A DNA stretch of 5,182 bases from an uncultured Solobacterium sp. (GTDB lineage: Bacteria; Bacillota_I; Bacilli_A; Erysipelotrichales; Erysipelotrichaceae), in the NCBI GenBank assembly GCA_937910655.1, contig CALEMV010000323.1, positions 1 through 5,182 on the forward strand, written 5' to 3'. Shown here one piece after another: positions 88-5,182 of the stretch (positions are counted from its first letter, which is position 1; each line of letters starts with the position of its first letter). Position numbers and translations under genes: made by a program. The notes beneath the pieces are model-generated. The model searched no databases. It saw only the letters and a program-made list of their open reading frames with translations, and had not been told where the DNA came from.

Positions 88-309
88 ATGGAGAAGAGAA
101 AAGATTGGGCTGGTATCATCTTCGGTACAATTTGGTTTCTATACGCAGCTGTACTTCTAGCTCTATATCTAACTGGAAATCTAAATGGCAGTTTTAAAGT
201 ACCACGTCTTCTACTTGTCATTTACGATACGCTTGGTGTATTACCAGGATCGATTGTGCAACTAGTAGTCAGCGCCATCATCGTAGTCTTCAGTTTCCGC
301 GGAAGATAA
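88..309 (+). CDS. Small two-helix membrane protein, unknown function
   Basis: A 73-residue protein with ATG at 88 and GGAGG at 74-78 (9-nt spacer), stopping with TAA at 307-309. The N-terminus is basic (MEKRK), followed by a hydrophobic helix at about residues 8-28 rich in W, I, F, L and Y. A polar and basic link follows (about 29-42, NLNGSFKVPR), then a mixed stretch, then a second helix at about 52-69 ending in a positively charged FRGR tail. By the positive-inside tendency, both ends would face the cytoplasm in a hairpin topology. I do not recognise the family, and there is no catalytic motif, cysteine pair or signal peptidase site. It is monocistronic, with its own promoter and a strong terminator 12 nt after the stop, and a repeat array over the promoter suggests regulated expression. 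The ATPase homologue follows about 100 bp downstream in the same direction. A functional link is possible but not shown. Confidence 0.75.
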   Translation: MEKRKDWAGIIFGTIWFLYAAVLLALYLTGNLNGSFKVPRLLLVIYDTLGVLPGSIVQLVVSAIIVVFSFRGR

Positions 310-383: not shown

Positions 384-412
384 AATTTTGTAAAATATAA
401 CAGAGGATATCC

Positions 413-2545
413 ATGGAAACAATCAGACAAACATTTTCAGTCGCAAATCTGTATTTGAATGCAAGTGCTGATACCATCTATCAACACTTAATGAATACGC
501 AAGGAATCGTTGCAGTAACGGTTGCTTTAAGCGACCGCAATGTGACTGTCGAGTTTGATCCATCGATTATTACAGCAGATATCATTATTGCAAAAATCAA
601 AGCATGCGGATACCAAGCATATACACGTGAGATTCCAACTTCGGATATGCTGATACCACAGGATAATAAAGTTTCAATCAAACCCAATTACCGTATCTTG
701 TTTATTTTTGTGGTTGAAGTGATTCTACTAGCAATTCTATGGATCATGCATATAACGCCTTGGATTGGACTAATATTCTCTCTATATTCCCTATATGTTG
801 GTCGTTTCATATTCATGCATGCAAAAGAGGAAATTCAAAAGGGAAATCCATCTTCTGCTACGATTGGTAGTATTGCCGTTTTGATTACATTTTTATACGG
901 TATTTATCTAACAACTCAAAATACTGCAAATGCATATCCATTTATCATTTCAATGATTGCAATACTTGGTACAAACATCTATAAAACAAAATATCTAAAG
1001 TACATGCAACAATGTTCTTCTACTTCGTTGAATATAAAACAATATATTCCAGAAAATACAGCCGTATTCAATAAGACAGGTGAAGTCATTGAAGAAACAA
1101 GCCAGCTCAAAAAGAATCAGATTTTGATTATTAGACCTAATGAAAACATTCCTTGCGACGGTATCGTCGTAGAAGGATACGCATCTGTCGATGAATCTAC
1201 ACTGACAGGTGTACAATCAAACATCACAAAGTCCGAAGGTTCTTATGTTTATGCAGGTACACGTTGTTTACAAGGTTCTCTACAGATTAAGGTAGAGAAG
1301 ATTGGCGAAAAGACAACACTATTACAGTTTGCAAAACTTGCCAAAGAAACAGCGAACGATAAATCCTTTGATTCACCATTTAAGAACTTCTCAAAATACT
1401 TATTCTTATATTCGATTATTACAGCTATCATTTTATTCTTTGGTTGGATTTTAGTTGGTAAGTCATTCTCTATAGCAATCAGTATTTCTATTGCAGTACT
1501 AGCATCTGTTGCAATGAACGCACTAACAATTGCCTCAGAAAAAGAAGTATTAGAAAAGGCAATCCACGCTGCTAAGAACCATGTACTATTCCGTAATGTG
1601 GACGCATTAGAGACAGCAGGCAAAGCAGAAACATTATTCCTTGAACAAGATGATGTATTGATTGGTTCAAAACCAGAGGTAACTGATTTTATTCCTGTCG
1701 ATGATACAGATTTAAATACCATGCGCTATATTGCATATACACTATCCAACAAACGACATGACAGTTACTCTAGAGCGATTACACGTTACTTAAAATCACA
1801 AAAGATTTCTTCTGTAAACCTAAGTGTTCTAACAAATTTTCAAAAGGCACATCAAAGCGATACAATTCAAAATACCTATCAGTTATGTAATGTTCATGAT
1901 TTATCTTATACAGATATCATTAACCCAACCATAAGACAAAAGATTGATGAACTTGTAGAGCAAGGAAAGAAAGTTTTTATCCTAATTGGGGAAGAACAAG
2001 TACTAGGTTTAATCGCTATGCAAAAGCCAATTGTCCCAAATAGTATACAAGCCATCCATTCACTTAAAGAACTAACAGATGTACATTTATTTGCACGTGG
2101 AAATGATGAAGAAATTCAATATATTCAAAAAAATTGTGAGATTAAAAACATTCATGCAAACGTAGACATGAATGAAAAAGAAAATCTGATAAAATCATGC
2201 TCGCATGACTCTATCAGTATGTACGCAAATGTCGATGGCTCTATCTCTTCATCTACCGCTGATGTAAATGTTCAATTTGGTATTAGCCAGAATTTAGATT
2301 CTGAAGATAACGATATTATATTAACGCGTAAACGTTTAAGTGATTTAGTATTCGCAATTCAAACGTCCGCAAAACTAAATCAACAGATTCAATTTAAACA
2401 GATTGCAATCATTGCATACCATATACTAGCTGTCATAATATTTGGCTTTATTACCCCAATCTTCTTTGCCATTCCACTTCCAGTAGTCCTGCCATGTATC
2501 ACTTCCATCTATGTCATTCGATTCTTATTTCAATCGCATAAATAA
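413..2545 (+). CDS. Degenerate P1B-type (CopA-like) ATPase homologue; predicted catalytically dead pseudoenzyme
   Basis: A 710-aa membrane protein, ATG at 413 with AGAGGA at 402-407. Its layout matches single-HMA copper ATPases: HMA fold at 3-72, helices near 94-113, 115-133, 150-167 and 174-190, actuator domain about 200-320, helices near 329-348 and 352-375, P/N domain about 376-655, and helices near 663-680 and 682-706. Family landmarks remain (IPxDG 246-250, VDESxLTG 259-266, ALE 398-400, KPEVTD 420-425, TADV 615-618). The functional residues do not. The HMA CxxC is L15/S18, TGE is TGV (265-267), CPC aligns to AMN (367-369), DKTGTLT to EQDDVLI (411-417), HP to HD (449-450), TGDN to ARGN (561-564), and GDGxND to YANVDG (604-609). 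Known family chemistry requires these residues, so metal pumping by phosphoenzyme cycling is not expected. A 710-codon frame without stop or shift argues against a freshly decaying pseudogene. A scaffold, sensor or metallochaperone-like role is only inference. The alignments were made by eye. Confidence 0.85.
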   Translation: METIRQTFSVANLYLNASADTIYQHLMNTQGIVAVTVALSDRNVTVEFDPSIITADIIIAKIKACGYQAYTREIPTSDMLIPQDNKVSIKPNYRILFIFVVEVILLAILWIMHITPWIGLIFSLYSLYVGRFIFMHAKEEIQKGNPSSATIGSIAVLITFLYGIYLTTQNTANAYPFIISMIAILGTNIYKTKYLKYMQQCSSTSLNIKQYIPENTAVFNKTGEVIEETSQLKKNQILIIRPNENIPCDGIVVEGYASVDESTLTGVQSNITKSEGSYVYAGTRCLQGSLQIKVEKIGEKTTLLQFAKLAKETANDKSFDSPFKNFSKYLFLYSIITAIILFFGWILVGKSFSIAISISIAVLASVAMNALTIASEKEVLEKAIHAAKNHVLFRNVDALETAGKAETLFLEQDDVLIGSKPEVTDFIPVDDTDLNTMRYIAYTLSNKRHDSYSRAITRYLKSQKISSVNLSVLTNFQKAHQSDTIQNTYQLCNVHDLSYTDIINPTIRQKIDELVEQGKKVFILIGEEQVLGLIAMQKPIVPNSIQAIHSLKELTDVHLFARGNDEEIQYIQKNCEIKNIHANVDMNEKENLIKSCSHDSISMYANVDGSISSSTADVNVQFGISQNLDSEDNDIILTRKRLSDLVFAIQTSAKLNQQIQFKQIAIIAYHILAVIIFGFITPIFFAIPLPVVLPCITSIYVIRFLFQSHK

Positions 2546-2748: not shown

Positions 2749-3018
2749 TTAACTATCTAATGACTCCATCAGTTCTTCAACGCTATCGAAAGGACCATTT
2801 AAATCTCTTCTCTTTGTGGCATCTTCCATCGCTGCATATGTCTCTATATTTGGCTCTTCGATTCTCACATCAAATGGTAGTCCATGATGTTGTAATGCTT
2901 GTCGATAGAAAATTCCAGTAGCAGTACTCATATCAAGCCCTAAAGATTTGAATAACTTCGTTGCCTGTACTTTAATATCATGATCGATTCGCAGTGTCAT
3001 ATTTTCTTTATTTGCCAT
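2749..3018 (-). CDS. RelB/DinJ-family antitoxin, apparently without its toxin
   Basis: An 89-aa protein beginning MANKENMTLRID. I chose the ATG at 3018 because AAAGGAG lies at 3027-3033, 8 nt upstream; a second in-frame ATG at 3036 would overlap that site and has no ribosome binding site. The N-terminal half is a ribbon-helix-helix DNA-binding domain: a strand at about 5-12 (NMTLRID), a helix at about 14-26, the turn LGLDMS, and a helix at about 31-45 ending HHGLPFDVRI, typical of DinJ/RelB. The C-terminal half (about 53-89), with an acidic tail containing the family-typical FDSVEELME, would wrap the toxin. In this family the antitoxin represses its own operon and neutralises a RelE/YafQ-type mRNA endonuclease encoded just downstream. 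Here the 203 bp down to the next gene hold a terminator and no toxin-sized frame, and the space upstream holds none either. It is an orphan, or its partner is elsewhere. Confidence 0.85.
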   Translation of the reverse strand: MANKENMTLRIDHDIKVQATKLFKSLGLDMSTATGIFYRQALQHHGLPFDVRIEEPNIETYAAMEDATKRRDLNGPFDSVEELMESLDS

Positions 3019-3044
3019 TAATTTCACTCCTTTCATTTATATTT

Positions 3045-3107: not shown

Positions 3108-3118
3108 TAGACATAACA

Positions 3119-3176
3119 AAAGGTCTCGATTAAACCCTGCTGTTTCATTCTAACGGTTTATTTTGGCGAGACCTTT
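3119..3176. terminator. Long two-stem hairpin, terminator or structured RNA
   Basis: The outer stem is a perfect 10 bp, AAAGGTCTCG (3119-3128) with CGAGACCTTT (3167-3176). Inside it, TAAACC (3131-3136) pairs with GGTTTA (3155-3160) around an 18-nt loop. The two stems are separated by an asymmetric internal loop (2 nt versus 6 nt). On the minus strand the structure is followed by TTTTGTTAT and on the plus strand by TTTCTTG, so it could terminate leftward transcription coming from the 3447 promoter before the antitoxin promoter. The size and internal loop are also compatible with a small RNA or the 3' end of one. Confidence 0.55.
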
Positions 3177-3211
3177 CTTGATGCTATAGATTTGCTACAT
3201 TATCTTTTTTT

Positions 3212-3556: not shown

Positions 3557-4366
3557 ATGATACAAGATATCTACCCACACGTTTATAAGAATGCGTTTCA
3601 AACAGGTGTTACGCCTGCCAATGATGATATTATCTTCTCTTTTGAAGAAGACCAAGTCTTAATGAAAGACGAACATCACTTTTATCGCTATCATGAAATT
3701 TCCCAGGAAAGTAGTTGTTATTATCTATTTTCTATCGACGATATAAAATTCTTTCTCGCTGACTTAACAAGTCTTGATCATATTAAGGTATCCTTCCGTG
3801 CGATGCGTACCTTTGAAAATCAAATGTTAGGTTTTGCGGCTATCACAGCTTGGCATCTTTATCGTTGGATTCAGGATAATAAGTATTGTGGTAAATGTGG
3901 TCATCCGATGGATTTCGACAAAAAAGAAAGAGCGATGCGTTGTCCACATTGCTCAAATATTGTATATCCTAAGATTTCACCTGCTGTTATCGTTGGTATC
4001 ACCAATGAAAAAGATCAGATTCTCGTAACGAAGTATGCGCATGGTCACTACCAAAGTTATGCACTCGTTGCCGGTTTCTGTGAAATTGGCGAAACAATCG
4101 AAGAAACCGTAAAGCGTGAAGTAAAAGAAGAAACTGGTCTAGATGTAACCGATATTCAATACTATAAATCACAACCATGGTCCTTCTCATCCACATTACT
4201 TTTTGGATTCTGGTGTAAAGCACATGGTGATTCTCCTATCCAGATGGATGAAAATGAGTTACGTGTTGCACGGTGGGCAGACCGTGAGGAAGAGATTAAC
4301 AGTCTAGATAATGCCTCACTTACAACTGAAATGATTCAATATTACAAACAAGGGAAAGTAGTCTAA
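3557..4366 (+). CDS. nudC: NudC: Nudix NAD(H) pyrophosphatase / RNA deNADding enzyme
   Basis: A 269-aa cytoplasmic enzyme (E. coli NudC is 257). ATG at 3557 with AGGAGGT at 3544-3550. The N-terminal domain, about 1-105, is poorly conserved as usual. A four-cysteine zinc ribbon follows (C111, C114, C129, C132), then the NudC-typical YPKISPAVIVGI at 137-148. The Nudix box is complete: G173, E179, R187-E188-V189, E191-E192, G194-L195, so divalent metal binding and pyrophosphate cleavage should be intact. The family-diagnostic SQPWPFPxS element appears as SQPWSFSST at 205-213; the first five residues and F210 are kept, while the second proline is serine. Known NudC enzymes cleave NAD(H) to NMN(H) and AMP and remove NAD caps from RNA 5' ends. 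It is transcribed alone from its own promoter and ends at the terminator shared with the convergent pseudouridine synthase. Confidence in the family is high; relative preference for NADH or capped RNA cannot be read from sequence. Confidence 0.95.
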   Translation: MIQDIYPHVYKNAFQTGVTPANDDIIFSFEEDQVLMKDEHHFYRYHEISQESSCYYLFSIDDIKFFLADLTSLDHIKVSFRAMRTFENQMLGFAAITAWHLYRWIQDNKYCGKCGHPMDFDKKERAMRCPHCSNIVYPKISPAVIVGITNEKDQILVTKYAHGHYQSYALVAGFCEIGETIEETVKREVKEETGLDVTDIQYYKSQPWSFSSTLLFGFWCKAHGDSPIQMDENELRVARWADREEEINSLDNASLTTEMIQYYKQGKVV

Positions 4367-4378
4367 CTACTTTCTTTT
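4354..4378. terminator. Shared bidirectional terminator made of both genes' last codons
   Basis: GAAAGTAG (4354-4361) pairs perfectly with CTACTTTC (4367-4374) around the loop TCTAA (4362-4366). The plus side continues TTTTCAT and the minus side CCCTTGT. The left arm encodes the last residues of NudC, and the loop contains its stop codon (4364-4366). The right arm is the stop codon (4369-4367) and final codons of the minus-strand gene. Confidence 0.75.
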
Positions 4379-5182
4379 CATATCTTCTGGTAATGGTGAT
4401 TCTAGAATAATCTTCGCTTTGGTAAAGGGTTGTATAAATTCAATTCTTGCACAATGTAATGCTGGTCGTTTGATCCATTGTGTACTACCACCATACAACG
4501 TATCCCCACAGAGTGGATGACCAATCCCCGCAAAACCAGCACGTATCTGGTGTGTTCTTCCCGTTTGTAAATGTACTTCTATCAGACACTCTGTTTGATA
4601 CCTTTTCATTACTTCATATTCTGTAATACATTGTTTTCCACCTTGATTGAAGGATTGTATCATTTGCCCATCTTCCTTCAACAAGGAAAAAATTAGTGTA
4701 GCTTTATCTTCTAGTTGTCCTTCAACAATCGCGTAGTAGTGCTTTTGAAGGATTCCATCTTTCCTTTGTGCTGTTAATCTTGCGGCAGAGAGTTGATTTT
4801 TCGCATAAATCATAATACCTGATACATCTTTATCTAATCGTCCAATTGGACGAATCACAAAGTGCTCATCTTGGTAATAATCTCTTAGAATTGTTCCCAT
4901 ATCATCCGTTAAATGAAGATGACTCGGATGAGATGGTATGCCTGCAGGTTTATCCACAATCACAATATCTTCATCTTCATACAAGATGTCTGGTCGCATG
5001 ACACTTGGATGAAGTGGATATGTTTCTAGATTCAATTCTTCAATCATTAGAACATCTGTTGTATGTACAACTTGGTTGACCATCACAGGTTCTCCATTTA
5101 AATACATCTGATATGCCGAGAATTTAAAGCGTGAAATTTCATGACGACTAAAACCCAAAGACGATAAAACGGCCTTTACTGT
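4367..5182 (-). CDS. RluA-family pseudouridine synthase, 5' end outside the window
   Basis: The gene reads leftwards to a TAG at 4369-4367. The frame could begin at a TTG (5158-5156), but it stays open to the window edge. The codons upstream (TVKAVLSS before LGFSRHEIS) continue what looks like an S4-type RNA-binding domain, so I treat it as 5'-partial. Counting from that TTG as residue 1, the S4-like part ends near 30 (LNGEPVMVNQ at 20-29). A short linker leads to the catalytic domain at about 55-258. KPAGIPSHPS is at 70-79; the signature GRLDKDVSG at 106-114 holds the presumed catalytic D109, with valine where the family usually has threonine; RTHQIR is at 201-206, GDTLYGG at 218-224 and a C-terminal LHCARIEF at 234-241. 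The enzyme isomerises uridine to pseudouridine in rRNA or tRNA. The RluC/RluD branch is likely, but the target base cannot be assigned. It converges with nudC with zero spacing. Confidence 0.92.
   Translation of the reverse strand, partial: TVKAVLSSLGFSRHEISRFKFSAYQMYLNGEPVMVNQVVHTTDVLMIEELNLETYPLHPSVMRPDILYEDEDIVIVDKPAGIPSHPSHLHLTDDMGTILRDYYQDEHFVIRPIGRLDKDVSGIMIYAKNQLSAARLTAQRKDGILQKHYYAIVEGQLEDKATLIFSLLKEDGQMIQSFNQGGKQCITEYEVMKRYQTECLIEVHLQTGRTHQIRAGFAGIGHPLCGDTLYGGSTQWIKRPALHCARIEFIQPFTKAKIILESPLPEDMKRK

Follow-up and report, generated by a model that had tools for sequence, protein, structure and literature searches.

A P1B-type ATPase homologue without P-type motifs in Solobacterium-like Erysipelotrichaceae: a candidate pseudo-ATPase family

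The P-type ATPases, a textbook family of pumps, are defined by a phosphorylated aspartate, which raises the question of what a protein may do that has their architecture and lacks this residue together with the other catalytic signatures. Such a protein is encoded on a contig of an uncultured Solobacterium sp. (Erysipelotrichaceae; assembly GCA_937910655.1, contig CALEMV010000323.1), the whole analysed stretch of which, 5,182 nucleotides in length, is here termed the window. Its open reading frame (ORF) at 413..2545 (+) starts with ATG, is open throughout and specifies 710 amino acids. A preliminary description had regarded the product as a full-length P1B-type homologue with all functional motifs altered, and as a selected pseudoenzyme rather than a decaying pump, and the comparisons reported here agree with it on these points, as the motif loss is family-wide, the near clade is constrained and the distant members have invariant residues of their own. 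Judged from sequence comparison, the homology, the motif loss, its persistence over deep divergence, a single branch in the tree and a shift of constraint among the domains indicate a selected family of long standing that has the P-type plan but lacks the P-type motifs. On balance, the protein is probably a non-pumping P1B-1 homologue that likely binds other proteins from its membrane anchor, as a regulator or scaffold, and would act through its cytosolic HMA-like, actuator and N domains.

The best solved relative is Archaeoglobus fulgidus CopA (3j09, E 2e-39), with which residues 25-690 can be aligned; VIFDKTGTLTKGKPEVTD lies opposite TLFLEQDDVLIGSKPEVTD of CopA, so that E411 occupies the position of the phosphorylated aspartate. 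The AlphaFold2 model predicts that the P1B fold is kept, with eight membrane helices and HMA, A, P and N domains, and it is this whole-length homology, together with the predicted topology (HMA domain, two extra N-terminal helices, eight helices in total), that places the protein among the P1B homologues. It resembles the P1B-1 Cu+-ATPases (CopA, ATP7B) in the order HMA, four transmembrane helices (TM), A, two TM, P/N, two TM, and in the match of sequence and predicted fold over nearly the whole length, but differs from them in that CxxC, TGE, CPC, DKTGT, the HP histidine, TGD and GDGxND are all replaced. In the NCBIfam models, the cut-offs of TIGR01525 (199.6 bits vs 346.25) and TIGR01511 (152.4 bits vs 397) are missed, while the general P-type model TIGR01494 is passed (67.7 bits vs 62.3). 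The gene and its parts are as follows.

402..407 (+): AGAGGA, read from the sequence as a likely ribosome-binding site, 5 nt ahead of the ATG.
413..2545 (+): P1B-ATPase-like candidate pseudoenzyme ORF, 710 amino acids (profile matches, CopA alignment, AlphaFold2).
413..628 (+): HMA-like domain, residues 1-72, L15/S18 for CxxC (PF00403, 24.6 bits, slightly below the cut-off of 24.8).
692..1024 (+): first four membrane helices, residues 94-204, lowest conservation of all domains family-wide (AlphaFold2, pairwise identity).
1028..1387 (+): actuator (A) domain, residues 206-325, highest conservation of all domains (PF00122, 108.7 bits).
1205..1213 (+): TGV replacing TGE, residues 265-267 (alignment).
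1382..1576 (+): helices M3-M4, residues 324-388, with AMN for CPC at nt 1511-1519 (AlphaFold2, alignment).
1577..1687 (+): P domain part 1 (P1), residues 389-425, with H390 invariant in the family (AlphaFold2, alignment).
1643..1657 (+): EQDDV replacing DKTGT, with E411 at the phosphorylation site (alignment).
1688..2002 (+): N domain, residues 426-530, with D450 in the HP histidine column (alignment).
2003..2335 (+): P domain part 2 (P2), residues 531-641, with ARGN at nt 2093-2104 and a degraded GDGxND at nt 2222-2239 (alignment).
2336..2530 (+): helices M5-M6, residues 642-706, with Y669-H670 vs the Tyr-Asn of most comparators (AlphaFold2, alignment).

The registers of the motifs were taken from an alignment of the window protein with 41 relatives and 85 comparators (P0154-P0238), the latter being the next-best matches of the search that yielded the distant relatives, and not tested pumps; 83/85 of them carry DKTGT and 83/85 carry GDGxND. 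Among the metal ligands, the CxxC of the HMA-like domain has become L15 and S18, and CPC is replaced by A367-M368-N369, where the register may be off by two columns because one distant relative, P0145, has CPS two columns earlier; CPC is missing in either register. The M6 methionine column is likewise lost, in the window protein as in nearly all distant relatives. The catalytic replacements proposed earlier for TGE (T265-G266-V267), DKTGT (E411-Q412-D413-D414-V415) and TGDN (A561-R562-G563-N564) were recovered in the alignment, and at the first of these sites glutamate is found in 85/85 comparators and 0/32 distant relatives. The HP motif is indeed altered, but the residues are not H449-D450, as had been suggested: the alignment puts the histidine column, His in 85/85 comparators, on D450 and the proline column on S451, which rules out the former pair. 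Similarly, GDGxND is replaced as claimed, yet "YANVDG" (604-609) marks the site only approximately, since its columns fall on N606-V607 / D608-G609, two residues being deleted, and both aspartates are lost. The P-domain GDGxND and TGD expected of an active P1B pump are thus absent, and so are the DxD of motif I (E411-Q-D in the window protein) and the acidic residues of motif IV expected of a HAD-type phosphatase. With other residues in place of the phosphorylated aspartate and its lysine, of the glutamate of TGE, of the histidine of HP and of both GDGxND aspartates, a phosphoenzyme (Post-Albers) cycle is presumably absent.

This state is shared by the near relatives, of which the best 120 of 520 matches (85-95% identity to the window protein) were considered; one of them is named as coming from an uncultured Solobacterium, and the Solobacterium-type host label rests on two record names, P0067 and P0146. 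Exactly 710 amino acids are found in 118/120. Neither DKTGT (0/120) nor GDGxND (0/120) occurs among these listed relatives, and the TGE site reads TG[VI] in 120/120; a "TGE" pattern match in 119/120 proved in every case to be an FNKTGE stretch elsewhere in the protein and not the motif. As to whether the unusual motifs are themselves conserved, the answer is divided: E411, Q412, D413, D414 and A367-M368-N369 are invariant in 118/118 of the 710-residue relatives, as are C285, H390, Y669 and H670, whereas the ARGN (TGD) and YANVDG (GDGxND) regions drift, with neither GDGxND aspartate present in the window protein or in any of the 118. The near clade differs at 447 site variants, 367 of them reachable in one step, and the latter are far more conservative than random codon changes of the window sequence (0.49 vs -0.22, with 0/5000 simulations as high). 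Relative to expectation, variants are scarce in the A domain (0.36) and stand at 1.16 in the first four helices and 1.78 in the linker; variants were scored once per site and residue rather than along a tree, as a protein-level surrogate for the ratio of non-synonymous to synonymous substitution rates. At the protein level, sequence variation thus indicates that the near clade evolves under constraint.

A longer query retrieved P0122 and P0123 at 32-33% identity (best 120 of 301 matches), and these two, used as queries in turn, retrieved 32 distant relatives (P0122-P0153), three near-clade members and then the 85 comparators (best 120 of 256), and the scores show a gap from 482 to 258 bits; since only three of the 120 near relatives appear there, this listing is incomplete. 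The distant relatives are 29-34% identical to the window protein (alignment A5), and P0150 and P0153 are partial near-copies of P0141. DKTGT, TGE[SAP], GDGxND and CxxC occur in 0/32 of them, so that orthologues with intact DKTGT, TGE and GDGxND, which the preliminary description had named as evidence for a recent pseudogene, were sought and not found among the visible relatives, near (0/120) or distant (0/32). The phosphorylation-site dipeptide is EQ in 24, DQ in 6, ES in 1 and RQ in 1, giving glutamate at the nucleophile position in 25/32 distant and all 118 near relatives of 710 residues. The HP histidine column holds His in 0/32; HP pattern matches in two (P0131, P0152) are located outside the aligned column. 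The family also has signatures of its own. C285 and H390 are present in 39/39 lookalike rows of the alignment, and H670 beside Y669 in M5 in 38/39, most comparators having Tyr-Asn; comparators show Cys in 1/85, His in 0/85 and His in 0/85 at the C285, H390 and H670 columns, respectively. Q412 (for the lysine of DKTGT), R639 and R641 are each found in 38/39 rows, and most comparators differ there. The same fold plan is predicted for a distant member, P0147 (mean predicted local distance difference test score, pLDDT, 82.1).

In a tree built by a quick method with 20 of the 85 comparators and with the phosphorylation-site columns left out, in which long branches meet, a single branch separates the 39 lookalikes from the 20 comparators (Shimodaira-Hasegawa-like approximate likelihood ratio test, SH-aLRT, 100). 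Given the quick method and the long branches, the branching order within the family and the ancestral letter of the phosphorylation site are unsure. At least 6 changes of that letter are needed along the tree, and the aspartate may therefore have been lost late or repeatedly. The window clade itself sits on a long branch, at 1.54 changes per column. Two comparators, P0198 and P0225, have DKTAT for DKTGT and cluster together.

To locate the constraint, 15 distinct lookalikes were compared domain by domain with samples of the 28 distinct comparators, 15 per sample; overall, both sets have a mean pairwise identity of 0.41.

HMA domain: 0.49 in lookalikes vs 0.35 in comparators.
TM1-4: 0.19 vs 0.34.
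A domain: 0.56 vs 0.46.
TM5-6: 0.39 vs 0.48.
P1: 0.51 vs 0.50.
N domain: 0.47 vs 0.28.
P2: 0.39 vs 0.47.
TM7-8: 0.39 vs 0.51.

Conservation in the comparators centres on the membrane path together with the P domain, in the lookalikes on the HMA-like, actuator and N domains, and the pattern persists without the window protein and when lookalikes and comparators are aligned separately.

Several explanations can be set against these data. A decaying copper-ATPase pseudogene that is open by chance would agree with the loss of every motif and with the long window-clade branch; however, near relatives of almost constant length, near-clade variants that are conservative and unequally distributed among domains, and a family that, with invariant residues of its own, persists at identities as low as ~30% speak against decay, as does the expectation of ~19 stop variants if these were equally likely, although open-frame databases hide broken copies. 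This explanation is highly improbable, being contradicted by the deep conserved family. A transporter or channel without phosphoenzyme cycling, in which, for example, metal would cross the retained membrane fold passively or be driven by a partner, would account for the eight helices of the AlphaFold2 prediction and for the Y669-H670 pair, but the constraint lost from the first four helices and lowered in M5-M6 (TM7-8 above), and the disappearance of CPC, CxxC and the M6 methionine column from the window protein and nearly all distant relatives, render it quite unlikely.

It is very unlikely that the active site has been remodelled for other enzyme chemistry, be it that of a HAD-type phosphatase or some further nucleotide-dependent activity residing in the P and N domains. 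In favour of this, four distant relatives have DxD at the site, including DQDGT, a form similar to motif I of HAD phosphatases, PF00702 matches 33/39 lookalike rows, the N domain is better conserved across the family than in the comparators, and the motif III column is Lys in the window protein and in 118/118 near relatives of 710 residues. This lysine is, however, found in just 14/32 distant relatives, and the GDGxND aspartates, which correspond to HAD motif IV, are missing from the window protein and all 118 of these near relatives and present in only 1/32 (the first) and 5/32 (the second) distant relatives; with a nucleophile that is mainly Glu and motif IV aspartates that are mainly missing, a HAD phosphatase is rejected. 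A metal or redox sensor with new ligands, such as the near-invariant C285, H390 and H670, would explain why these residues are (nearly) invariant in the family and rare or absent in comparators, but they sit in different domains, the protein has lost the classic ligand motifs, and such a role is considered unlikely.

The pseudo-ATPase reading fits the retention of the fold in prediction, the absence of the catalytic residues and the conservation of this state over long divergence, which together characterize a pseudoenzyme. In mechanistic terms, a partner would bind to the cytosolic headpiece; the most plausible and parsimonious candidates would be an active copper ATPase and a chaperone of one, because both carry matching domains. 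The conserved acidic residue and Gln at the former phosphorylation site may lock the P domain into a single state. A tentative scenario, somewhat less probable than not, is that the family arose from a copper pump of Solobacterium-like Erysipelotrichaceae: metal route and phosphoenzyme chemistry would have been lost, and the moving cytosolic headpiece would have become a membrane-tethered regulatory module, in which the acidic site residue would fix one state and which would control a genuine copper ATPase, its chaperone or another partner.

The nearest precedents found are eukaryotic; no bacterial P-type pseudo-ATPase was found among the papers listed in searches of the open-licence PubMed Central (PMC) library. 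TMEM94/ERMA, an animal P-type-like protein, was argued not to be an ATPase, and no ATPase activity was detected (PMC12134183), while a later report describes it as pumping Mg2+ (PMC13322241). Like the window protein, it has a P-type-like fold and an A-like domain without TGES (PMC12134183), but it is eukaryotic, has ten helices and keeps its proposed phosphorylation aspartate, D417, the likeness being one of description to a protein of disputed status. The case cautions, by analogy, against judging function from missing motifs alone, though the window clade has lost the aspartate too. Plasmodium guanylate cyclase beta (GC-beta) is reported to have a degenerate ATPase-like domain, which differs in being P4-like, fused to a cyclase and eukaryotic (PMC6592433). 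Pseudophosphatases and the pseudo-caspase FLIP also keep a fold and lose catalytic residues, with reported roles in regulation or scaffolding, but have other folds.

A number of observations weigh against the pseudo-ATPase reading or complicate it. By the TMEM94/ERMA analogy, a protein that lacks the motifs need not be inactive. The phosphorylation aspartate is retained in 6/32 distant relatives, four of them with DxD; the last GDGxND column is Asp in 5/32, and both Asp columns are kept in P0137 alone, which has Arg at the phosphorylation site. The HP proline and one GxG glycine are each kept in 31/32, CPS in M4 of P0145 is the sole case among the 32, and the conserved Tyr-His pair in the membrane part could mean a transport role. 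The near clade matches the family-wide constraint for the A and HMA domains, but its N domain varies freely (1.58 relative to expectation, with 1.36 in P2), a poor fit to a strongly constrained N domain. More members or intermediates may exist beyond the matches listed (best 120 of 520, 301 and 256), and the window holds neither an active copper ATPase nor a chaperone gene.

If the pseudo-ATPase reading is true, a bacterial family has the whole P-type architecture without the chemistry, the headpiece can serve without pumping, and nature provides a test of the roles of the A, N and HMA domains apart from transport. The family is also an annotation trap: TIGR01494 is passed by 4/4 members scanned (window protein, P0122, P0134 and P0147), and P0146 is recorded as "HAD-IC family P-type ATPase".

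Further searches yielded no additional relatives. Pattern scans of GTDB genome contigs matched 9 stretches for the window protein and 145 for A1 with no relative confirmed, which, as the patterns were few, does not amount to absence from the species; in viral contigs, the A1 and A4 patterns matched 195 and 70 stretches, again with no relative confirmed. There were no near matches in plasmids and phages, and none in Rfam. In plasmids, where both tblastn searches hit a ceiling of 5000 records, the matches listed, 10 at 23-25% identity with the window protein and 8 at 25-26% with P0122, are named metal or cation ATPases or are unannotated.

The pseudo-ATPase gene may well be transcribed alone, because a terminator-like hairpin (320-342) separates it from the upstream ORF and an inverted repeat follows it at 2597-2643. 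The latter has 20-nt arms that are 85% complementary; it is possibly a terminator and is absent from the terminator list. A promoter scan found 24 sites vs 24.2 expected by shuffling and is therefore silent on transcription. The neighbours in the window are a hydrophobic ORF, a RelB/DinJ antitoxin, a NudC-type NAD diphosphatase and an RluA-family pseudouridine synthase.

88-309 (+): hydrophobic ORF of 73 amino acids, matching neither Pfam nor NCBIfam at E 0.001.
2749-3036 (-): RelB/DinJ-type antitoxin (TIGR02384, 74.4 bits; PF04221).
3557-4366 (+): NAD(+) diphosphatase (NF001299, 176.3 bits, above the cut-off of 158).
4367-5158 (-): RluA-family pseudouridine synthase (PF00849; TIGR00005, 187.5 vs 192.7).

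The ~200 bases downstream of the antitoxin gene contain no ORF of at least 60 amino acids, and it is possibly an orphan antitoxin. An intergenic inverted repeat at 3112-3183 has 17-nt arms, 82% complementary and 38 nt apart, with no Rfam match. The NAD(+) diphosphatase and pseudouridine synthase genes converge, and their junction carries terminator-like hairpins on each strand.
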